Below are positions 36,483 to 48,618 of a stretch of DNA of 64,000 nt, one piece after another. The notes below the pieces were generated by a model. The model saw nothing but the letters and a program-made list of their open reading frames with translations. It did no database searches and was not told the origin of the DNA. Position 1 is the first letter of the stretch. The number at the start of each line of letters is the position of its first letter. The stretch lies in the NCBI GenBank assembly GCA_003994795.1, contig AP018269.1, forward strand, positions 372,001 through 436,000, in the 5' to 3' direction. Origin of the DNA: Cylindrospermum sp. NIES-4074. GTDB lineage: Bacteria > Cyanobacteriota > Cyanobacteriia > Cyanobacteriales > Nostocaceae. The position numbers and the translations under genes were made by a program.

Positions 36483-39400
36483 ATGATTACAATTCCGGGT
36501 TATCAAATTCAGAAAAAAATCCACGAAAGTGCTAATTCACAGGTTTATCGGGGAATTCGTGAACGGGATTGTTTGCCTGTAATCTTCAAGATTTTGAAGA
36601 AAGAATACCCCACGCCAGAGCAAATAACCCGATATAAACTCGAATACGAGATTACCCGCAGCTTGTCACTGGAAGGTGTGATTAAATCTTACTGTTTGGA
36701 GCAATATCAAAGTACTTTTATCATTATTTTGGAGGATTTTGGAGGGGAATCTTTAGCAAATCTTATAGCTAAGAACAGGTTTATATTAACAGACTTTCTA
36801 AAGTTAGCTGTGCAAATTACTAAAATTTTAAGTGATATTCATAGTGCAAAAATTATTCATAAGGATATTAATCCGTCCAATATTGTTTTTAATCCAAAAA
36901 CACAACAACTTAAAATTATTGACTTTGGTATTTCAACTGCCCTAGCGCGAGAAACCTTAACCCTCAAAAGTCCAACAGTATTAGAGGGAACCCTGGCTTA
37001 CATATCTCCAGAGCAAACAGGCAGGATGAACCGTTCTCTGGACTATCGAACTGATTTTTACTCTTTGGGTGCGACCTTTTATCAATTGTTAACCCATCAA
37101 CTGCCATTTGAATCGAGGGATTCCCTAGAGTTAATTCATCATCATCTGGCTCTAGAATCGATTCCACCTCATGTTATCGATTCAGAAATTCCTGTGATGG
37201 TTTCAAAAATTATCCTGAAACTGTTAGCTAAAACTGCGGAGGATCGCTATCAAAGTGGTGGGGGAATTATCAATGATTTAGAACAATGTCTGATTCAGTT
37301 ACAACAAACAGGACGCATAGAGTCTTTCACCTTAGCACAACAAGATATTTCCGATCAGTTTTCTATCCCTGAAAAACTTTATGGCAGAGAAAAGGAGGTT
37401 GAGACCTTATTAGCAGCGTTTGACAGAGTAGCAGGTAAAGATGATGCCAAGGATGTCTCTGTGTCTTCCTCCCTAGTCGAAATGATTCTCGTTGCCGGGT
37501 ATTCCGGTATTGGCAAGTCAGTATTGGTGCAGGAAATTTATAAGCCGATTACACAACAACGGGGCTATTTTGTTTCAGGCAAATTTGACCAGTATCAGCG
37601 TGATATCCCTTACTTTGCGATCGCCCAAGCTTTGGAATCGCTGATCAAACAATTATTGAGTGAAGATGAAGGACGGTTGAGTCAGTGGCGAGAAAAACTC
37701 TTAGTGGCACTGGGATCTAACAGTCTAGTGATTACTCAGGTAATTCCAGCATTGGCATTGATTGTGGGAAATCAACCAGACGTACCTGTTCTGCCGCCAA
37801 CAGAAGCCCAAAATCGCTTTAATCAAGTCTTAGTTAATTTCATTCGCGTCTTTACTCAGTCAGAACATCCCCTCGTCATCTTTTTGGATGATCTTCAGTG
37901 GGCAGATAATGCCTCCCTGAAGCTAATTCAACTGTTAACTACCACCACGGAAAAACAATCGTTGTTGTTGATCGGGGCATACCGAGATAACGAGGTAAAT
38001 GCAGCCCATCCCTTAATCCAGACGGTAGAGGAAATCCGGCAGAGTGGAAGAATGGTAAACCAACTTTCTCTGGCGGCATTGAACTTACCTGATATCAATC
38101 AGTTGATTGCCGATACATTGCACTGCCAACCAGAGGATTCCCTGCTCTTAGCTGAACTGGTGCAACTTAAAACTGGTGGCAATCCCTTTTTCATGAATGA
38201 ATTTTTGAAATCTCTCTACACGGAAGGGCTACTGAAATTCGAGCGCCAAACCAAAAAATGGCAATGGTCGATAGAGCAAATTCAGAAGCAGGGCATTACT
38301 GATAATGTCGTTGAGTTGATGGCCAGCAAGATTCAGAAGCTCAACCCTAAGACGCAGCAAGTGTTGCGGCTATCTGCCTGCATTGGCAACTCTTTTAATC
38401 TAGAAACCCTAGCTTATGCGGCTGAACTATCCCAACGAGAAACCGCCCAGATTTTGGGAGTAGCGATCGCTCAAGGGTTGATTCTGCCCATGAGCAATGC
38501 CCACAAATCAGTGGTGTTAGATGTGCCACTCCCTGACAGCCCGACAATTGAATATAAATTTGTTCACGATCGCATTCAACAAGCAGCTTATTCTCTCCTT
38601 CCGCAAGCCGAGCAAATCAAAACCCATTGGCAAGTGGGACAGTGTTTGTTGCAAATGACTGCCCCCGAACAGCTAGAATCCAAAATTTTTGATATCACCA
38701 ACCAACTGAACCTGGGCAGAAAACTGATAAAAACTCAATCTGATCAGGATAATTTGTCCCAGTTAAACGTAATGGCAGGGGAAAAAGCCAAGGCATCAGC
38801 TGCTTATGATGCTGCCTGGCGATATTTGCAAACTGGTTTGGGTCTGCTGACAACAGATAGCTGGCAAACTAACTATGATCTGACCCTGACTCTGTATGGT
38901 GCCACGGCAGAAGCCGCCTATCTGAGCGGTAATTTCGAGCAAGTAGAGCAACTGTGCCAACAAGTACTTGATCATGCCAGAACCCTACTAGCCAGCTTAA
39001 AAGTCTACGATGTCAAGATTCAGACTTGTGTCGCTCAAAATAAATTGCTAGAGGCGATTCAAATTGGTTTACAGTTACTGGAAAAATTAGGAGTTGATCT
39101 CCCCATCCAGCCAACCTTTGAGGATGTTCAACAAGCACTCTCGGAAACTGCCACAAAATTAGCAAACAGACCCATTGAAGATTTGGTTGACTTGCCAATC
39201 ATGTCTGAGCCAGAGGTGCTGGCGGCAATGCAGCTGTTGGCAAGTATGTGTGCATCAGCTTATTTGGCAATACCTCCCCTATTTCTGCTGATTGTACTCA
39301 AGATGGTGGATTTGCTGGTTGAGTACGGAAATATGATGTTGGCTCCCTTTGCCTATGCCGCCTATGGGATTATTCTCTGCGGAGTTATATTTGAGATTGA

Positions 39401-42191
39401 TGCCGGGTATCAATTTGGTCAACTGGCCTTAAGTCTGCTAGAGCGCTTAGATGCCAAACCTATTCAAGCCAGAACCTTATTCCCGGTTAGCGACCAGATT
39501 AATGTTTGGAAGAAACACTTGAGAGAAAGTCTCAAGCCACTTCAGGATTGCTATCAAGTTGGGATTGAGCAGGGCGATTTAGAGTTTGCTGGTTACGCTG
39601 CCATGCATTTCTGTGGTTATGCATTTGCAGTAGGTCAACCCCTGGCTGAACTACAACTTCATCTGACCAGTTATGCCCAGGCAGTGAAACAAATCAAGCA
39701 TTCAGCTGGTATTCATTTTGTAGATATTTGCTGGCAAACTGTTTTGAACTTGATTCAGAAGGTTCCTGCACCTGGTATTTTATCGGGTCAAGCTTATGAT
39801 GAAGCAACCCGGCTACCCCAGATGGAACAAACCAATTTTCACGGAGGTTTGTTCTATTTTTACCTGAATAAATTATTTCTGTGTTACCTGTTTGACGATG
39901 CAAAGGGGGCGATGTCTGCGACGGGCGGCGCCTACGCAAATGCTACCCTCGCACATGCTACCCTCGCACAAGAGTATATGCGTGCCATGACCGGATCGGC
40001 GTTGGTTGCGATATTTCGGTTCTACGATTCTCTAGCCCGACTGGCGGTGTATGCAGAGACAGCTCCTTCAAAACAGTCAGAGTTGCTGCAACAGGTAGCA
40101 GAAAATCAGGCAAAAATGCAACTTTGGGCGCACCATGCCCCGATGAATTATCTACACAAGTGGCACTTGGTAGAAGCAGAAAGGTATCGGGTGTTGGGTC
40201 AGGTAGCGGCAGCAATGGATGCCTACGATCGCGCGATCGCATTGGCAAGAGAAAACGAATACCTCCAGGAAGAAGCTTTAGCCAACGAACTAGCAGCAAA
40301 GTTTCATTTAGCAAAAAACCGGATGACAATCGCCAAAGCCTATCTGCAAGAGGCGAGGTATGGTTATTTAAGGTGGGGGGCAAAAGCTAAAGTTCAGGAT
40401 TTGGAAAGACGCTATCCCCAACTGCTAGAACTGCGGTCACCAATGATCAGCAGCGGTAAAGTTGACCCTACACAATCCGCTTCAACTAAGTTAGAAGCAC
40501 TTGACCTAGAAACGGTGTTGAAAGCGTCCCAAGCGATCGCCAGTGAAATTCGGTTAGATCAACTCCTGGCAAAATTGATGACCATCTTGATTGAGAATGC
40601 CGGGGCGCAAACAGGTTACTTAATTTTGCCAACACAAGACGAATGGCGAATTGAAGCAATCGGGTCGATTGGTGATGAAAAAATAGCCGTTTTGCAATCA
40701 ATTCCCCTGGAATTAATCTCAACAGATGGCAGTACTTACTTGCCAACTGCCCTGATTAATTACGTGGCTCGCACTCAAGAAAGCATCATCCTCGATAATG
40801 CTGCTCAATCCGGCAACTTTCAATCTGACCCTTGGATTGTGCAGCACCAATCGAAATCAATTCTTTGTGCGCCCCTGTTGAACCAGGGAAAACTGACTGG
40901 AATTGTCTTTTTAGAAAACAATCTCACCACTAATGCATTTACGCAAGAGCGAATTGAAATCCTGCGTTTACTTTCTAGTCGGGCAGCTATTTCTATTGAC
41001 AATGCTCGTCTATTAAAGCATCAGGAAGAACTGAATGCCTCTTTAAGGGCTGAAATTGCCGAACGCCAAAAGGCAGAGAAAGACCGCGATCGCATGATTG
41101 CCATCCTGGAAGCATGCACCGATCATATTGGTATGGCTACCCCCGAAGGGAATGTTTTCTGGAATAACGCTCAAGCCAAGAAACTGGCAGGTATACCGCT
41201 GGATGCAGACCTCTCTAACGCGATTATCTCCCAATACCATCCCCAATGGGCATTAGAAATTGTCCAAAATCAAGGCATTCCGGCAGCTATTCGAGATGGT
41301 ACCTGGGTTGGTGAAACCGCTTTGTTGAGCAGTGATGGCAGAGAAATTCCGGTTTCGCAAATGATCATTGCTCACAAAGCAAGGGATGGCAGTGTGGAAT
41401 ATGTTTCTACTATCATGCGGGATATCAGCACCCTCAAAGCGGTAGAGGCAGAAGTCCTACAACTTAATGCAGAATTGGAAGCACGGGTCATCCAGCGGAC
41501 TGCCCAATTACAAGCTGCTAACAAAGCACTGGAGACTTTTTCCTACTCTGTTTCCCATGATTTGCGAGCGCCTTTACGGGCGATAGATGGCTTTTCGAGA
41601 ATAATCCAAGAAGACTACAGTGAGCAACTTGATGCCGAAGCCAATCGTTACTTACAAGTTGTCCGGGATAATGCTAAACGCATGGGTGAGTTGATTGATG
41701 ATTTGTTGAATTTATCCCGTTTGGATAGGAAGGAAATGTCCAAGCAGCCTGTGTTTGTCAATGAGTTGATTCAACAGGTGCTGCGTGATTTGACCCCAGA
41801 ATGGTCAGGTCGTCAGATTGAATTTGCGATCGCTGATTTACCCATCTGTCAAGCTGACCTTTCCCTCCTCACACAAGTCTGGATCAACCTGTTATCAAAT
41901 GCCATCAAGTACACCCGCTACAAATCCGTTGCCCATATTGAAGTGGGTTATGAGGTTATGGATGATGAAGGAGTGTACTTTGTCAAAGATAATGGGTCAG
42001 GATTTGATATGCAGTATGCCGATAATCTGTTTGGAGTCTTCCAGCGTCTGCACCGCGAGCAAGAATTTGAAGGTACAGGTATTGGACTAGCGATCGTTCA
42101 ACGGATTATTCAACGCCACGGTGGGCGCATTTGGGCTAAAGCAGCGGTCGATCAAGGCGCAACCTTTTATTTCACCCTTCCAATACAATAA
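36483..42191 (+). CDS. Ser/Thr kinase - AAA ATPase - GAF - PAS - histidine kinase fusion
   Basis: The 1902-residue protein starts with a Hanks-type kinase domain (about 7-270): Lys36 (VIFKILK), catalytic HKDINPSN (His126-Asn133, Asp128), DFG at 147-149. An AAA/ORC-like ATPase follows (about 300-560) with P-loop AGYSGIGKS, then a long helical predicted-ATPase region to about 1320. A GAF domain (about 1345-1500) and a PAS domain (about 1525-1650) precede the histidine kinase core with His1692 (FSYSVSHDLRAPLRAIDGFS) and ATPase motifs NLLSNAIKYT, DNGSGF and GTGIGLAIV. This is the HstK-like architecture known from Anabaena. A response regulator starts 3 bp after the stop, a likely phosphorelay partner. 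Confidence 0.95.
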   Translation: MITIPGYQIQKKIHESANSQVYRGIRERDCLPVIFKILKKEYPTPEQITRYKLEYEITRSLSLEGVIKSYCLEQYQSTFIIILEDFGGESLANLIAKNRFILTDFLKLAVQITKILSDIHSAKIIHKDINPSNIVFNPKTQQLKIIDFGISTALARETLTLKSPTVLEGTLAYISPEQTGRMNRSLDYRTDFYSLGATFYQLLTHQLPFESRDSLELIHHHLALESIPPHVIDSEIPVMVSKIILKLLAKTAEDRYQSGGGIINDLEQCLIQLQQTGRIESFTLAQQDISDQFSIPEKLYGREKEVETLLAAFDRVAGKDDAKDVSVSSSLVEMILVAGYSGIGKSVLVQEIYKPITQQRGYFVSGKFDQYQRDIPYFAIAQALESLIKQLLSEDEGRLSQWREKLLVALGSNSLVITQVIPALALIVGNQPDVPVLPPTEAQNRFNQVLVNFIRVFTQSEHPLVIFLDDLQWADNASLKLIQLLTTTTEKQSLLLIGAYRDNEVNAAHPLIQTVEEIRQSGRMVNQLSLAALNLPDINQLIADTLHCQPEDSLLLAELVQLKTGGNPFFMNEFLKSLYTEGLLKFERQTKKWQWSIEQIQKQGITDNVVELMASKIQKLNPKTQQVLRLSACIGNSFNLETLAYAAELSQRETAQILGVAIAQGLILPMSNAHKSVVLDVPLPDSPTIEYKFVHDRIQQAAYSLLPQAEQIKTHWQVGQCLLQMTAPEQLESKIFDITNQLNLGRKLIKTQSDQDNLSQLNVMAGEKAKASAAYDAAWRYLQTGLGLLTTDSWQTNYDLTLTLYGATAEAAYLSGNFEQVEQLCQQVLDHARTLLASLKVYDVKIQTCVAQNKLLEAIQIGLQLLEKLGVDLPIQPTFEDVQQALSETATKLANRPIEDLVDLPIMSEPEVLAAMQLLASMCASAYLAIPPLFLLIVLKMVDLLVEYGNMMLAPFAYAAYGIILCGVIFEIDAGYQFGQLALSLLERLDAKPIQARTLFPVSDQINVWKKHLRESLKPLQDCYQVGIEQGDLEFAGYAAMHFCGYAFAVGQPLAELQLHLTSYAQAVKQIKHSAGIHFVDICWQTVLNLIQKVPAPGILSGQAYDEATRLPQMEQTNFHGGLFYFYLNKLFLCYLFDDAKGAMSATGGAYANATLAHATLAQEYMRAMTGSALVAIFRFYDSLARLAVYAETAPSKQSELLQQVAENQAKMQLWAHHAPMNYLHKWHLVEAERYRVLGQVAAAMDAYDRAIALARENEYLQEEALANELAAKFHLAKNRMTIAKAYLQEARYGYLRWGAKAKVQDLERRYPQLLELRSPMISSGKVDPTQSASTKLEALDLETVLKASQAIASEIRLDQLLAKLMTILIENAGAQTGYLILPTQDEWRIEAIGSIGDEKIAVLQSIPLELISTDGSTYLPTALINYVARTQESIILDNAAQSGNFQSDPWIVQHQSKSILCAPLLNQGKLTGIVFLENNLTTNAFTQERIEILRLLSSRAAISIDNARLLKHQEELNASLRAEIAERQKAEKDRDRMIAILEACTDHIGMATPEGNVFWNNAQAKKLAGIPLDADLSNAIISQYHPQWALEIVQNQGIPAAIRDGTWVGETALLSSDGREIPVSQMIIAHKARDGSVEYVSTIMRDISTLKAVEAEVLQLNAELEARVIQRTAQLQAANKALETFSYSVSHDLRAPLRAIDGFSRIIQEDYSEQLDAEANRYLQVVRDNAKRMGELIDDLLNLSRLDRKEMSKQPVFVNELIQQVLRDLTPEWSGRQIEFAIADLPICQADLSLLTQVWINLLSNAIKYTRYKSVAHIEVGYEVMDDEGVYFVKDNGSGFDMQYADNLFGVFQRLHREQEFEGTGIGLAIVQRIIQRHGGRIWAKAAVDQGATFYFTLPIQ

Positions 42192-42194
42192 CAA

Positions 42195-42683
42195 ATGACT
42201 GACCAACCCATTGATCAGCCCACTGATGCATCTTTTGAGCAACCGATTTCTATTGTGTTAGTTGAAGATAATCCTGCTGATGCAGAACTAGCTATACGAG
42301 CATTACGTCGCGGCAGAATTGGAAATCAAGTCCAATGGCTCCAAGATGGAGCAGAAGCCCTCGATTTTTTCTTTTGTCGCGGAAACTATGCCCAGCGGAT
42401 GATGACAAATCAACCCAAAGTCATTTTATTAGATTTGAAACTGCCAAAGGTGAATGGATTGGAAGTTTTACGGCAACTTAAGTCTGACCCACGCACTCAA
42501 ACGATTCCAGTTGTGGTGCTGACCTCTTCTGCCGAAGATAGTGATGTGATCGAGAGTTACCAACTGGGGGTGAATAGCTACATCGTCAAACCTGTCGATT
42601 TTGAACAATTCAACCATGCAGTCCAGCAGCTTGGGTTTTATTGGGTCTTGTTTAACCGAGTACCGTTTGGCAAAATCTACTAA
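42195..42683 (+). CDS. Rcp1-like single-domain response regulator
   Basis: The 162-residue receiver domain has Asp25/Asn26 ([13 protein letters not shown]), phospho-acceptor Asp80 ([17 protein letters not shown]), Thr110 ([11 protein letters not shown]) and Lys132 ([12 protein letters not shown]). No output domain follows. The C-terminal GFYWVLFN is seen in Rcp1/phytochrome-partner regulators. The gene starts three bases after the giant kinase stop. It probably receives phosphate from that kinase, whose phytochrome-type dimerisation helix fits this class of regulator. Confidence 0.94.
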
Positions 42684-44010: not shown

Positions 44011-44214
44011 ATGCAAGCTACTAACACCTCAACCCAAACCATGCTTGAGACAATTTTAGAGCGCATATTTGCAATCCGCCGCATTACCCGCCGGGATCAA
44101 CAGCTTTTGATGTCCACACTACTTTCTAAAGAAGGCTTAAACGAAAGCGATCGCCTACAAATTGGTAGAGTGTTTGATGCTTTACAAAGAGGATTAATCA
44201 AAGTAGTAGACTAA
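44011..44214 (+). CDS. Small conserved cyanobacterial protein (67 aa)
   Basis: The protein runs MQATNTSTQTMLETILERIF, AIRRITRRDQQLLMSTLLSK, ending RLQIGRVFDALQRGLIKVVD. I choose the ATG at 44011 because AGGTGAAG four bases before it is a good ribosome-binding site; a GTG at 44002 is also in frame. It is all-helical, with no cysteines or membrane segments. Similar short proteins recur in cyanobacteria, in my recollection, but no function is known to me. Confidence 0.7.
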   Translation: MQATNTSTQTMLETILERIFAIRRITRRDQQLLMSTLLSKEGLNESDRLQIGRVFDALQRGLIKVVD

Positions 44215-44232
44215 GTGTAGATACTTGTGCCA

Positions 44233-44261
44233 TTACAACATCTATAGTGAATATGTTGTAA
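44233..44261. terminator. Hairpin downstream of the small 67-aa gene
   Basis: Perfect 9-bp arms TTACAACAT (44233-44241) and ATGTTGTAA (44253-44261), 11-base loop, followed by AAAGG, with no T-run. It may stabilise or end the transcript of the small upstream gene; a terminator role is not certain. Confidence 0.4.
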
Positions 44262-44423
44262 AAAGGTTATGATTTTTAGATATGGGAATCAATAGGGATG
44301 TGATCGCCTATGCATCTGTATTTACTGTAGAGCTTCAGTCAAATTGTTGCTATTGGCTGCCATCACTATTTTTAGCCTACCAGCAATTTTATCTCTAACC
44401 TCATTTTTTAGCATAGCGTTAAT

Positions 44424-45053
44424 TCACAGTGAAAGAAAAACATGATGAATAACAAACTGACTAGCCAGTATATGTGTAGTTTCCTTAACTTGTGGATGGT
44501 GCGGTCTGAGAGAGGATTGACATAAACCGCTTGGAGGACTAATTCGCAGTTCTTTACACCGCGTTATTACTTGGCTATCTACTGCTTTGATAGCGGTTTT
44601 TGAATCACTATTCATAATGTAACCAATCATCCCTCCACAGATAAGCCCAGAAGAATATTGTGATGTTACATATCTCATCATTCCTTCTTTTACGTAGTCT
44701 CCTGCTAAAGATTTGCGTCCAGTTTTGAAAATTACATTGAGTCGCTTACATTCAAAAGAAAAATATACATCTTCCTTATATCCAGCCGTAAAACGCAGAT
44801 CAATACGTCCTTTTTCGGTTCCAGATTCTAAGTCATCTTCTGGGATTTCGCGGTCAATCAATACGGGTAATTTTACCAAGTTCTTTTGCTGTCTCAGAGT
44901 AGCTCTAAAACGCTTAGTTATAGGTACTTCATAGTCATCAATTTTAGGTTTACTAAAAACTTGCCATGCAGACAATACCAAATCTAAAATATCTGGAATA
45001 AGATAATCAGGAAAAGTATCCGCCCAAAGACTACTATTACCAACTATTGCCAT
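44424..45053 (-). CDS. PD-(D/E)XK-type nuclease partner of the adjacent DNA methyltransferase
   Basis: The 209-residue protein has a recognisable nuclease core: Asp85 (KGRIDLRFTAGYKEDVYFSF) and Glu101-Cys-Lys103 (ECKRLN), the D...ExK set of restriction endonucleases. The region SSGLICGGMIGYIMN follows. The family is not one I can name. The start ATG overlaps the methyltransferase stop by one base (TGATG), so translation is coupled. The combination suggests a split restriction-modification module. No separate specificity subunit is seen. Confidence 0.8.
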   Translation of the reverse strand: MAIVGNSSLWADTFPDYLIPDILDLVLSAWQVFSKPKIDDYEVPITKRFRATLRQQKNLVKLPVLIDREIPEDDLESGTEKGRIDLRFTAGYKEDVYFSFECKRLNVIFKTGRKSLAGDYVKEGMMRYVTSQYSSGLICGGMIGYIMNSDSKTAIKAVDSQVITRCKELRISPPSGLCQSSLRPHHPQVKETTHILASQFVIHHVFLSL

Positions 45054-48000
45054 CAGCTTTCCTTATAGTTGCTAGTGAGGATTGCTGCTGCTATTTCATC
45101 TGCATCGTTTAAAGCAGAGGTCTTAGTCCAAAACCGACGAGCTAATGGTTTAAAAATATATAGCTTATTTTCGTCAAAAACCTTGAGATTTCGCAATAAG
45201 CTGATACTCCCTTGCTGATTGGGTAAAAGACGAATAATCCGTTGGAGAACAATATCTAATTCCTGCATTGATTTCTGCTCAATATTCACCCAGCTTTGCT
45301 CTACATTAATTTTTCTGTCTAAAACAATAATTGCTGCACCCATGCCTAAAGAGACTATAATGTTACCGATTATAGTATACTGACTTTTACGCGCCCAAGT
45401 ATTAAGTACGTTACATAAAAGTTTTAAATACTCCTTGCGTTCTTCGGGTTCGCTCCTAACCAATGTAGGAATAGGCCAAGTACCTCGATTTGGCTGGATA
45501 CTAGATATGGAAATATTGATAGTGTCATCTATTAATATTTGCTCATATTCATCAATATCATAGTATTCATAAACATATTTAAGTAATTCGTCTTTCTCAT
45601 TTCGTACCGTCTGCTGACGATTTAATAAAAAGTTTTGATTAATCTGGTTTTTTAGATTTCTAATTTTTTCTGCAACTTGTCGAACAATTTCTTTTGACCT
45701 AGAAGGATCTTGAGTCATTTCTGGCAATAGAAATGGGAATCTAAGCAGTTCTGTAATGCGTATATCACCCCTTTCAATTCCCCAAGTAGATGCTGTATGA
45801 AATAAGAGATATCGTGCCAAATCTGAATTTAAAACAGCAGTTAAAAACATCAAAATTTCTGTATCATCATGGTTGCCGTGAATACTTCTAATAGCATGAC
45901 GAAAAACTACTTTAAAATCACAAAATGCTACTTTTAAACCTTCTTTTCCTCCTGTATTTAGGAGAATATGAGGGGCATTAAATATATCTTGATCTGACGG
46001 TATTCTGCGAAGTTCATTAAATTTTTCACCAATAGGTACACAATCGCGTTCTATAACTATAAGTTCTATACCTTTATTGTTGCTATCTAGGAATAGCTGC
46101 TCTTTTTTCCAAGGAGATAATTGAATTGTATTAGGATCATCTGTAGAACACCTTGGTTCAAACCCTCGACCCATTAACCATCTTTTTATTTTCTTATTTT
46201 TCGTCTTCCCTGGTTTTAATGTATCTACTAAATTATCTAGTCGTGGTAGTGCAGATAATCTTTCCAGAAATTTTATGTCTCTAGAGGTTCCCCAAAAAGA
46301 TTGTTTCCAAACTAGCGCAGCTTCACCATTACTAAGATCATATAGTACTTCTCTAAGCCTAACTTTTGTTTGCTCTTCTGGTGAAATAGCTAGAATTTCA
46401 GCCCTAATAGTTTCCAATTCAGTCTTAGGCGTTATATAGTCAATACTGCCAGTTTTTCTATCAGGTTTTTCTTTCCGATACCTGACAATAAGTGTAGGAC
46501 GATCAGCACCATCAAACAGGTAAAACCTCATATCGGACAGGTTAATTACCTGCTCAACCGTATATGTTGATAACCACTCTTTTTGAAAGTCTAGTGCTTT
46601 ATCTTGGTGGTTAAATAAAACTCCTGCTGGAAGTAAAAAACAAATACGTCCATCATCCCGTAAGTGTTGCGGAGCTTTCCACACAAACCCACAAGCTAAC
46701 TGTCTTTGAGCAATTGTATGATTTTCTTGTTCACACCACTGCTCCATAAGATTTCTTTGTTTTCCTGTTACTTTTGCCCAAGGTGGATTACCTATTATCA
46801 GGTCAAATCCCTCCGCAGGAATTGGTAAATCTTTTTCAAAAAAATCTTTGCAAAGGAGGTTATGACCTACTAATTTTGGAAGTGCATTCCCCTGTTTTTG
46901 AAGTTTCTGAATATTTTTAGGATCAAGTTGATCTAGAAAGGCAAGATATAAGCTAAATGCTGCAATACGACAAGCCGTTTCACTAGAATCTGCATCTATG
47001 CCAAAAAGATTATGCTGAAGAATATTAATTAGGGCTAGTGCAAGTTCATCATTGTTATTACTAACAGTTCTGTGCTTGATACACCATTCTTCAGCTAATC
47101 GGTTAAAAATTGCTACTAGGAAGATACCCGAACCACAAGCTGGGTCAAGAAAACGCTTTTCTAGTAAGGAATTCCATCCATCTAGCGCTGTATCAAGAAC
47201 TATTTCGGCTAAAAATCTTGGTGTGTAGTATGTGCCACTCTCCCGCTTTTCTTGTGTTTCAAGAAAATGTTCATAAATACTACTTATGGTTTCAATAGGA
47301 ATAACGCTAAAATCATAAGCCCAAAACCCCAGTGAAAGTTGACCACTACTTAGATCATCACCACGAAGAAAACTTTTTAATATGTTAATATGTCGGTCTT
47401 GAATTAATTTACTTTCTGATTGAATATCACCATCAAACAAGTCTCCATTAAAGTCACATTGGAGTTGTTCAAATAAAGCATATAAAAGTTGCTTTGCTTC
47501 ATAAGGTTCGTTTCTTTCCAAAAGCTCAATTAGTCTGTGACAATCTGTTGCACCTATTTTGTTAAAATAAGAAAGGTCAATAATTTTTCTATCAACGAGA
47601 TAACAGGTAAATATTGTGCGCCATAGCAGAGCATTAACAATCCTGATATCTAGTGTATTATTATTTTCTTTTTTCAATAAACTACTACGTGCTGCCGCTA
47701 AATTTTTGAGTAGATAGCGATCAACACGCAAATCTGGTTTAAAAGATTCTGGTTTTTTTCTAAACAATTCACCGAGTTCTACTGCTCTGATAAATTGCTT
47801 AAGTTCAATTTCATCAGCTACCCGATCTAAAATTTCGACAAGACGATTTTGTTGGGAAACATCTTGATCATCTTTCGCAGGAAGCGCAAGACCTGAATAA
47901 ACCTGAACTTCAGTGGGACTAATAACTACAAGTAAGGGAGCAATACCTTGATTCCATATCTGACGATGTAATCTACGCATCTGCTCAGAATCTATAGTAG

Positions 48001-48208
48001 AAACTTCTTTAAAATAAATATAGGGTGCGTTGTTGACGCATAGAATCCCATTAAGGTCTAAATCTTTCCATGCCCTACGCATTATATGTGCCTGTGGAGG
48101 GGACTGATCACCCGTGTTGATTTCTTCAAGGGTATGAAAAAACTCTGGTGAGCGTCTTCCACTCAGTTCAAGTTGTTCTCTCCAATCTAAGCTAGATGAT
48201 GTAATCAT
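45053..48208 (-). CDS. Large N6-adenine DNA methyltransferase of a two-gene restriction/defence module
   Basis: The 1051-residue protein carries motif X-like YYTP (327-330), SAM motif I DPACGSG (355-361) and catalytic NPPW (474-477), the order of gamma-type N6-adenine methyltransferases as in Eco57I/type IIG and PglX-like proteins. Residues 1-300 include WKDLDLNGILCVNNAPYIY and a degenerate-looking APLLVVISPTEVQVYSG; no ExK nuclease motif is obvious there. Residues 600-850 resemble a target-recognition region, and the rest is helical. A separate PD-(D/E)XK nuclease is coupled downstream. The product could modify DNA and direct its partner to unmodified or foreign DNA. A tRNA-Pro lies upstream. 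Confidence 0.88.
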   Translation of the reverse strand: MITSSSLDWREQLELSGRRSPEFFHTLEEINTGDQSPPQAHIMRRAWKDLDLNGILCVNNAPYIYFKEVSTIDSEQMRRLHRQIWNQGIAPLLVVISPTEVQVYSGLALPAKDDQDVSQQNRLVEILDRVADEIELKQFIRAVELGELFRKKPESFKPDLRVDRYLLKNLAAARSSLLKKENNNTLDIRIVNALLWRTIFTCYLVDRKIIDLSYFNKIGATDCHRLIELLERNEPYEAKQLLYALFEQLQCDFNGDLFDGDIQSESKLIQDRHINILKSFLRGDDLSSGQLSLGFWAYDFSVIPIETISSIYEHFLETQEKRESGTYYTPRFLAEIVLDTALDGWNSLLEKRFLDPACGSGIFLVAIFNRLAEEWCIKHRTVSNNNDELALALINILQHNLFGIDADSSETACRIAAFSLYLAFLDQLDPKNIQKLQKQGNALPKLVGHNLLCKDFFEKDLPIPAEGFDLIIGNPPWAKVTGKQRNLMEQWCEQENHTIAQRQLACGFVWKAPQHLRDDGRICFLLPAGVLFNHQDKALDFQKEWLSTYTVEQVINLSDMRFYLFDGADRPTLIVRYRKEKPDRKTGSIDYITPKTELETIRAEILAISPEEQTKVRLREVLYDLSNGEAALVWKQSFWGTSRDIKFLERLSALPRLDNLVDTLKPGKTKNKKIKRWLMGRGFEPRCSTDDPNTIQLSPWKKEQLFLDSNNKGIELIVIERDCVPIGEKFNELRRIPSDQDIFNAPHILLNTGGKEGLKVAFCDFKVVFRHAIRSIHGNHDDTEILMFLTAVLNSDLARYLLFHTASTWGIERGDIRITELLRFPFLLPEMTQDPSRSKEIVRQVAEKIRNLKNQINQNFLLNRQQTVRNEKDELLKYVYEYYDIDEYEQILIDDTINISISSIQPNRGTWPIPTLVRSEPEERKEYLKLLCNVLNTWARKSQYTIIGNIIVSLGMGAAIIVLDRKINVEQSWVNIEQKSMQELDIVLQRIIRLLPNQQGSISLLRNLKVFDENKLYIFKPLARRFWTKTSALNDADEIAAAILTSNYKES

Positions 48209-48544
48209 AGTTCTATCCCTACCAATGCTAAGGGAAGCCTAATAGTTGTTGTCAAGTACCTCCATTAATTTAGGAGCCAGTCTATCATCTTATAACAGTA
48301 GTTTCTTTCTGCAAACTATGTTAAGTGCAGACAATCTTAAAAATCGGATCTTATGACAGTAGCTACAGATTGATAGGTCAGGTGTACTATTATAATTAAT
48401 ATAGTGGAATTGCTCAAAAAATGCGATCGCATTTTCACTGTAGTTTTATTAAGCTTCGTAAGCTATTTTTTTTTGCCTAGACCTTATGAGGCAACACCTA
48501 AAAATCTTCCGCACACACAAGTAGTAGGGTTTCTTCACTAAAAA
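48209..48544. other. 336-bp gap upstream of the methyltransferase gene
   Basis: AT-rich DNA, presumably with the promoter of the methyltransferase/nuclease operon (leftward). It contains HIP1 at about 48423. No reading frame, repeat or attachment-site duplication was recognised. Confidence 0.5.
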
Positions 48545-48618
48545 TCGGGATGACTGGATTCGAACCAGCGGCCCCTTCGTCCCGAACGAAGTGCGCTACC
48601 AAGCTGCGCCACATCCCG
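48545..48618 (-). tRNA. tRNA-Pro, anticodon CGG
   Basis: The minus strand folds as a full cloverleaf: acceptor CGGGATG/CATCCCG, discriminator A, D-arm GCGCAGCTTGGTAGCGC, anticodon stem CTTCG/CGAAG with loop TTCGGGA (anticodon CGG at 48584-48582), and T-arm with GGTTCGAATCC. The 3' CCA is not encoded. Its 3' end faces the methyltransferase gene. Confidence 0.95.

Follow-up and report, generated by a model that had tools for sequence, protein, structure and literature searches.

What does a large adenine-specific DNA methyltransferase do when the gene overlapping its end encodes a small protein with the residues of a nuclease, and neither a helicase nor a separate specificity gene lies beside the two? 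This question is raised by a pair of genes at positions 44424 to 48208 of a 64,000-nucleotide stretch of DNA from the cyanobacterium Cylindrospermum sp. NIES-4074 (contig AP018269.1, positions 372,001 to 436,000), which was analysed as a whole and is referred to here as the window. Comparison with the relatives of both proteins indicates that the pair is probably a two-subunit, Type IIG-like restriction-modification system, in which a subunit comprising a methyltransferase and a target-recognition domain (TRD) directs a separate PD-(D/E)XK nuclease that lacks a motor.

According to this proposal the large subunit would read a short, probably asymmetric DNA site by means of its C-terminal TRD and would methylate adenine in that site, thereby marking self DNA. 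The small protein, with its predicted nuclease fold, would bind the large subunit in a physical complex; on unmethylated foreign DNA the recognition domain of the large subunit would direct it to cut at or near the site, cutting would proceed without a DNA-translocating motor, and the presumed outcome would be the restriction of phages.

The large gene reads from 48208 to 45053 and the small gene, which lies downstream, from 45053 to 44424. The first-pass annotation of the window had described an N6-methyltransferase of 1051 amino acids (aa) with the motifs DPACGSG and NPPW, coupled through TGATG to a protein of 209 aa, and the coordinates and motifs were found to be as it gave them. It had also pointed out that functions fused in Type IIG enzymes are split here, with no helicase; indeed, there are two open reading frames (ORFs), and neither a helicase nor a separate S gene adjoins the pair among the annotated neighbors in the window. 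The features of the pair are as follows.

45053..48208, minus strand: large subunit gene, 1051 aa, N6-adenine DNA methyltransferase with a probable built-in target-recognition domain (Pfam, PADLOC, alignments)
47804..48208, minus strand: N-terminal domain, residues 1-135, in which no nuclease residues are conserved; may be a nuclease domain in decay (64 large proteins)
46379..47311, minus strand: N6-adenine methyltransferase domain, about residues 300-610 (Pfam N6_Mtase/Eco57I)
47126..47146, minus strand: motif I DPACGSG, residues 355-361 (D355, G359 and S360 invariant in 42 proteins)
46778..46789, minus strand: motif IV NPPW, residues 474-477 (N474, P475, P476 and W477 invariant in 42 proteins)
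45809..46222, minus strand: putative target-recognition domain, residues 663-800 (drop in identity and rise in synonymous divergence, dS, against the relative L102)
44424..45053, minus strand: small subunit gene, 209 aa, putative PD-(D/E)XK-type nuclease family (motif conservation; no model in the four libraries searched)
44799..44801, minus strand: Asp85 of the small subunit, putative catalytic residue (77/77 and 58/58 sequences)
44745..44753, minus strand: Glu101-Cys-Lys103 of the small subunit, ExK motif (E101 and K103 in 77/77 and 58/58)
45053..45053, minus strand: base shared by stop and start codon (TGATG), probable translational coupling of the large and small gene (ORF reading)

Conservation of the gene pair

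Co-occurrence of homologous pairs, proposed as a check by the first-pass annotation, was counted from both sides. For the large protein, one genome per species was scanned with an alignment of 23 large proteins (that of the window included) as the query; the scan listed at least 508 relatives among at least 587 candidate stretches, and the best 80 of these at least 508 relatives were used for the pairing counts. The small gene is located directly downstream in 76 of the 80, and the remaining four (L146, L153, L173, and L179) end at a contig edge with no room downstream; all 76 loci with room keep it as a separate gene. By record titles the 80 relatives span about twelve phyla (Cyanobacteria, Planctomycetes, Proteobacteria, Desulfobacterota, Acidobacteria, Verrucomicrobia, Lentisphaerae, Chloroflexi, Bacteroidetes, Nitrospinae, a Chitinispirillaceae bin, and Sumerlaeota), many of them being metagenome bins for which single phylum assignments may be wrong. 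Found across this range, the pair is not a local oddity. The two genes overlap by 4 nucleotides in 49 of the 76 relatives and by 1 nucleotide, as in the window, in 11, counts that depend on a rule-based choice of start codons.

Searches with the small protein, in which the first 10 or 7 candidates of each genome were scored, matched at least 11 of 294 genomes from the phylum of Singulisphaera and at least 6 of 398 from the phylum of Azospirillum. Of the 26 loci found from this side (11 of which are also among the 80 large-side relatives), 25 have the large gene next to the small one, in L209 in interrupted form; the remaining locus, L213, begins at a contig edge. Within the order of the window the small protein, used as a single-sequence query, was detected in 22 of 388 genomes, at 25 places. 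From the same order 44 regions were fetched around large-protein matches (43 from the large-protein search and L101 from the small-protein search) and a recognisable small gene occurs in 41 of them, L073, L075, L087, and L092 included; the exceptions are L072, where the contig ends, and L066 and L070, which hold remnants of the small gene only. It is truncated in L093 and interrupted in L094. A profile made from the small protein of the window and its relatives in the 80-locus set detects 59 of the 59 proteins tested (cyanobacterial, plasmid and distant ones, that of the window included, L075 and L213 excluded) at E<=6.6e-07. The pairing of the large and the small gene, kept in all 76 large-side loci with room for it, is far beyond chance.

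The small protein as a putative nuclease

The small protein contains the sequence RID (D85) followed by 15 residues and then E101-C-K103, which had been read at the outset as a nuclease core. This arrangement withstands comparison: E42, D85, E101, K103, Y120, G124, and Y133 are invariant in the protein of the window and 76 relatives (77/77), and H194 and H204 occur in 76 of the 77. Among 58 further small proteins from distant cyanobacterial clades, plasmids and other distant loci (a few of which repeat loci of the first set), D85, E101, K103, and Y120 are found in all 58, H204 in 57, E42 in 56, H194 in 55, Y133 in 54, and G124 in 40. An E...D...ExK pattern is that of PD-(D/E)XK nucleases, and the superfamily motif (D...ExK with an upstream E) is present in the small subunit, which accordingly bears the signature of a protein predicted to fold as an active PD-(D/E)XK nuclease.

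The family has no model in the four libraries searched. The small protein of the window has no match at E<=1 in Pfam, PADLOC or NCBIfam, and 66 members of the family gave no convincing match in Pfam, NCBIfam, PADLOC or PHROGs: the best values were 0.0042 in Pfam (an unrelated hairpin family, one member), 0.0012 in PADLOC (one member, a methyltransferase model) and 0.03 in NCBIfam, with none at 0.01 in PHROGs. Inspection of the protein revealed no visible recognition domain and no helicase match. Given the lack of a convincing match in these libraries and the label "hypothetical protein" that the small protein has in four plasmid records, software for annotation and for finding defence systems would probably see in the pair a methyltransferase standing alone or a Type IIG fusion, and counts of complete restriction systems in cyanobacteria, planctomycetes and other groups would come out too low.

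The large protein and its divergent segment

The methyltransferase core of the large protein is well defined by Pfam N6_Mtase (residues 306-601, E=8.6e-21) and Eco57I (residues 399-559, E=4.9e-18), while TaqI_C at residues 736-807 stays below threshold (E=0.054). The protein was aligned with 22 relatives and also with 41 (42 proteins in total); a more distant cyanobacterial clade has NAPW in place of NPPW. Residues 77-1041 match the PADLOC Type IIG model PDLC03623 (E=1.1e-94). Membership in the PADLOC Type IIG models was considered and rejected for this family, as the matches of the nine proteins scanned, long as they are, reach no more than a modest 330.6 bits over about 1020 positions, and for that reason these models are taken to represent a sister group. 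Weak matches to BREX PglX and MADS methyltransferases score far below the NCBIfam cut-off, and the solved relatives of the large protein are mixed, including Type I, IIB/IIG, and BREX enzymes as well as Type II or solitary adenine methyltransferases.

The N-terminus had been described as degenerate-looking, and the alignments agree. Within their first 150 residues, 23 of the 64 large proteins compared have a D-x8-22-[DE]-x-K pattern, about as many as shuffled sequences lead one to expect (21.9), and across residues 1-135 of the same 64 proteins no column exceeds 66% D/E and no conserved catalytic motif was found.

A second region of interest lies toward the C-terminus. The large protein of the window and that of Anabaena sp. 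UHCC 0204 (L102) share 80-100% identity per 30-residue bin, which falls to 47-70% at about residues 663-800; within this segment L102 and its counterpart in A. azotica (L103) are 70-97% identical. The dS values behave likewise: 0.20 outside and 1.29 inside the segment against L102, 0.50 and 1.52 against L103, and 0.49 and 1.29 against L060. The ratio of nonsynonymous to synonymous divergence (dN/dS) is 0.17-0.29 throughout, 0.17-0.26 for the body of the large gene together with the small gene and 0.18-0.26 for the small gene itself, so that both genes are under purifying selection. The raised dS points to a different history of residues 663-800, by recombination, rather than relaxed selection, and these residues probably represent an exchanged TRD. 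The first-pass annotation had stated that the pair is without a specificity subunit; this holds insofar as no separate S gene is present, but fails in that residues 663-800 behave like a built-in, exchangeable recognition domain. The nuclease would share this segment with the methyltransferase. If so, the pair would be a natural system of two parts, with a single exchangeable domain setting the mark as well as the cut, and from the divergence of this segment in two close cyanobacteria would follow a prediction that can be tested in their methylomes.

The small protein shows no such divergent block between the window and L102 (84% identity overall, 73-93% in 30-residue bins). This comparison bears on the first alternative, a conventional Type II system in which an independent methyltransferase is accompanied by a small restriction enzyme that recognizes the same site unaided. 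There are Type II enzymes of about 200 aa that have a specificity of their own, and the conserved C-terminal region of the small protein with H194 and H204 could be accommodated in such an enzyme. Should both proteins read DNA independently, protection would be lost on an exchange confined to one of them; in the window and L102 the putative TRD is different, with raised dS, whereas the small protein does not follow it. The best PADLOC models of the large protein are also Type IIG, a weak point given its mixed solved relatives. A conventional Type II system is on these grounds judged unlikely.

The divergence of the small nuclease and that of the methyltransferase body are correlated. Over 41 loci, identity of the small protein follows that of the methyltransferase domain (rho 0.69, Mantel 0/500) and of the N-terminal domain (0.68), and to a lesser degree that of the TRD segment (0.45).

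Comparison with known systems

The large protein resembles Type IIG enzymes (Eco57I, MmeI; PADLOC PDLC03623, PDLC03603) in having an N6-adenine methyltransferase core followed by a probable recognition domain, about 1000 aa and no translocase, and the pair probably works like a Type IIG enzyme. In the latter the methyltransferase chain itself includes the R domain, permanently and at its N-terminus (PMC3874165; included in the chain also according to PMC4081073), whereas in the pair the nuclease is a separate gene and the N-terminus of the large protein has no conserved PD-(D/E)XK site. The Eco57I/N6_Mtase domain is shared; the pair is not filed as Type IIG because the R domain is not part of a single chain.

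Type IIG-like systems having the endonuclease on a peptide separate from the methyltransferase/TRD chain were described by Blow et al. (2016) (PMC4752239), and by its sequence the pair answers to that description. The split examples presented in that source are built differently. AchA6III has a fused PLD endonuclease/translocase, in contrast to the single PD-(D/E)XK-type protein without translocase of the pair; OspHL35III has a translocase and a GIY-YIG endonuclease, and MexAMORF1192P two translocases and an HNH protein, none of which occurs in the pair; the other split examples are BREX-like (PMC4752239). The same work covers 76 systems that differ also in the presence or absence of a translocase, one of which may have the layout of the pair (PMC4752239). 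The open-access literature considered, in the portions covered (PMC12839542, PMC13092281, and PMC8262939 among others), contained no two-gene PD-(D/E)XK system without translocase, which is not proof of absence from print. The split Type IIG-like design is already in print, the described split examples being built differently from the pair. The first-pass suggestion of a poorly described restriction or phage-defence system stands in part: the small protein has no convincing match in the four libraries searched and a role in restriction or defence is probable, but split systems of this general kind have been published (PMC4752239).

Two further precedents are informative. In Haloferax volcanii, HVO_A0006 and HVO_A0237 were proposed to be a Type IIG enzyme split into nuclease and methyltransferase pieces, a likeness to the pair; these are 231 genes apart, fragments beside transposition genes, whereas the genes of the pair are adjacent, overlapping and conserved (PMC4389544). 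In the heterodimeric Type IIS enzyme BtsI the small subunit is inactive alone and depends on a recognition-bearing large subunit (PMC2909958), a dependence similar to that proposed for the pair; unlike the pair, BtsI has a large subunit that is a nuclease in its own right, and its methyltransferases are encoded by further genes (PMC2909958). The pair also differs from Type III systems, in which a Res helicase-nuclease accompanies Mod, as the partner is about 210 aa long and has no helicase match.

These comparisons leave room for a broader and more tentative proposal, possible though somewhat doubtful, that the pair represents a distinct, unnamed restriction class found in about a dozen phyla. 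The methyltransferase-TRD protein, its nuclease-like N-terminus inactivated, would then be the exchangeable component that guides a small PD-(D/E)XK nuclease lacking both recognition domain and motor, and the inactive N-terminal domain may act as docking or pseudo-dimer partner of that nuclease.

The methyltransferase cores of BREX PglX/BrxX and of MADS MAD2 are related to the large protein, and a second alternative follows this relationship: methylation would mark self, and a non-specific or abortive nuclease would be set free once phage DNA or an anti-restriction protein is detected by the complex of the methyltransferase. The weak PglX and MADS matches are in keeping with a BREX-like or signaling defence of this type, as are the LexA-like, HTH_11-like or MerR-like genes upstream of some relatives. 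Such a system is nonetheless very unlikely here. A third constant gene was not found in 89 loci, where gene families (named in part) occurring in at least three loci, the pair apart, reach at most 19, and a scan of the window neighbors in Pfam and PADLOC revealed no BREX partner such as the core genes PglZ and BrxC. Membership in BREX proper was rejected on the same evidence and on the low NCBIfam scores.

Fused, broken and orphan copies

Fused relatives provide a view of the alternative architecture. The motif PD-x13-EAK stands at residue 77 in five full-length proteins (L257-L260 and L271) and in a fragment (L276), and the DNA examined around them contained no gene of the small family; L262 has PD-x14-DLK and L261 a similar stretch by eye. 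Split and fused proteins form separate groups in an 87-row, midpoint-rooted tree (support 99/98). An origin of the pair by recent fission of a fused gene in cyanobacteria was considered and is not supported by this separation, as read from a tree with long branches and a midpoint root.

Copies in which the large gene is open and the small gene lost or interrupted (L066, L070, and L094) bear on a third alternative, an epigenetic regulator in which the methyltransferase is the working part and the small nuclease is vestigial, its gene decaying. These three loci are what such decay would look like. Decay is contradicted elsewhere by the active-site residues kept in both sets of small proteins (77 and 58), by the dN/dS of the small gene and by its presence at every one of the loci with room for it, and this alternative is regarded as very improbable. 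As a separate observation, L094 (G000:C1:6254000-6269000) is a second, distant copy of the pair in the genome from which the window comes; its large gene is open (1056 aa), its small gene is interrupted by about 450 bp, and the copy looks like an orphan methyltransferase.

Several points weigh against a guided two-subunit nuclease. The fold of the small protein is predicted from a motif pattern; a profile search of solved structures with the small protein matched no nuclease (the two matches under 0.001 are both repeat-protein entries), and PDDEXK_9 of Pfam appears at best with E=0.018, in 2 of the 66 members scanned. A smaller alignment with distant clades (A2) did not list D85 and E42 as invariant; in the larger joint alignment, on which the conservation claim for these residues relies, D85 is present in every row and the exceptions for E42 are L101 and the truncated L074. 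A profile comparison by hhalign gave no clear homology between the N-terminus of the large protein and the nuclease domains of fused Type IIG enzymes (E=0.018, probability 2.5%), and the long branches of the midpoint-rooted tree may attract one another. Over the 41 loci, identity in the TRD segment is still tied to that of the methyltransferase domain (0.63).

Finally among these points, a broken large gene accompanies an open small gene in L127, L133, L163, L174, L180, L087, L092, and L081. In the first five the large gene consists of two ORFs and the small gene adjoins the last piece; some broken large genes may be assembly errors. An open small gene beside a broken large one is compatible with a nuclease that is inert unless guided, and is not compatible with a free, self-directed lethal nuclease. 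Two of these loci, L087 and L092, come from genomes of the genus of the window (G284 and G276) and have the large gene in two ORFs and an open small gene with its motif intact.

Genomic neighborhood, mobile elements and upstream regulators

The pair is located between a short conserved ORF ending at 44214 and a tRNA gene, near a lipoyl-synthase-like gene.

48545..48618, minus strand: tRNA-Pro (CGG) adjoining the pair (site empty in one genome of the same genus)

Among the annotated neighbors, one flank comprises a phosphorylase-superfamily protein and a response regulator, and the other the tRNA-Pro and the lipoyl-synthase-like radical-SAM gene. In the genome G1085, of the same genus, the two flanks are contiguous, with about 0.5 kb from the ORF to the tRNA, and the site is empty. 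In G382 (the UHCC 0204 contig) the pair is oriented as in the window and likewise adjoins this tRNA-Pro and lipA2; the 15 kb examined did not contain the other flank, so that one side is shared and an identical site is not proven. In G094, again of the same genus, the neighbors of this tRNA-Pro are a Type I HsdR-like gene and a DUF559 gene, and the occurrence of restriction genes at this tRNA is a point in favor of the proposed system. The tRNA-Pro(CGG)/lipA2 neighborhood (44215-48545 of the window) is thus variable among G1085, G094, G382, and the window. Only weak, short repeats were found, and promoter- and terminator-like sites are no more frequent than in shuffled sequences.

Plasmids carry relatives of both proteins: among 72,556 records, there are 37 with a match to the large protein at E<=1e-20 and 5 with a match to the small protein at 1e-3. 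In four of five plasmid records examined the large gene, named N-6 DNA methylase in three and "type I endonuclease-methyltransferase fusion protein" in one, precedes a gene for a "hypothetical protein" that is detected by the profile of the small protein; the fifth has a truncated large gene of 372 aa without a small gene. Among 50,697 phage records there is one weak match to the large protein. A contig classed as viral (L277, IMGVR_UViG_3300021604_000070) has the full pair and may be a prophage or misassigned bacterial DNA.

Three families of regulator-like genes recur upstream among relatives: a MerR-like family (15 cyanobacterial loci, two members scanned), a LexA-like family (19 loci, one member scanned) and an HTH_11-like family (9 loci, one member scanned). 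None of these lies directly upstream of the pair in the window. Their recurrence is consistent with the control genes of restriction systems, and the LexA-like genes could tie the system to DNA damage. In L159 a gene with LexA_DNA_bind and Peptidase_S24 domains (L159:4246-4866) is found just upstream of the pair, as are its relatives in many of the 19 loci; the LexA-like gene of L103 is far upstream on the other strand and may be an ordinary LexA. Elsewhere in the window, positions 36483-42683 encode a protein of 1902 aa with kinase, AAA, GAF, and histidine-kinase domains, which is followed by a response regulator.

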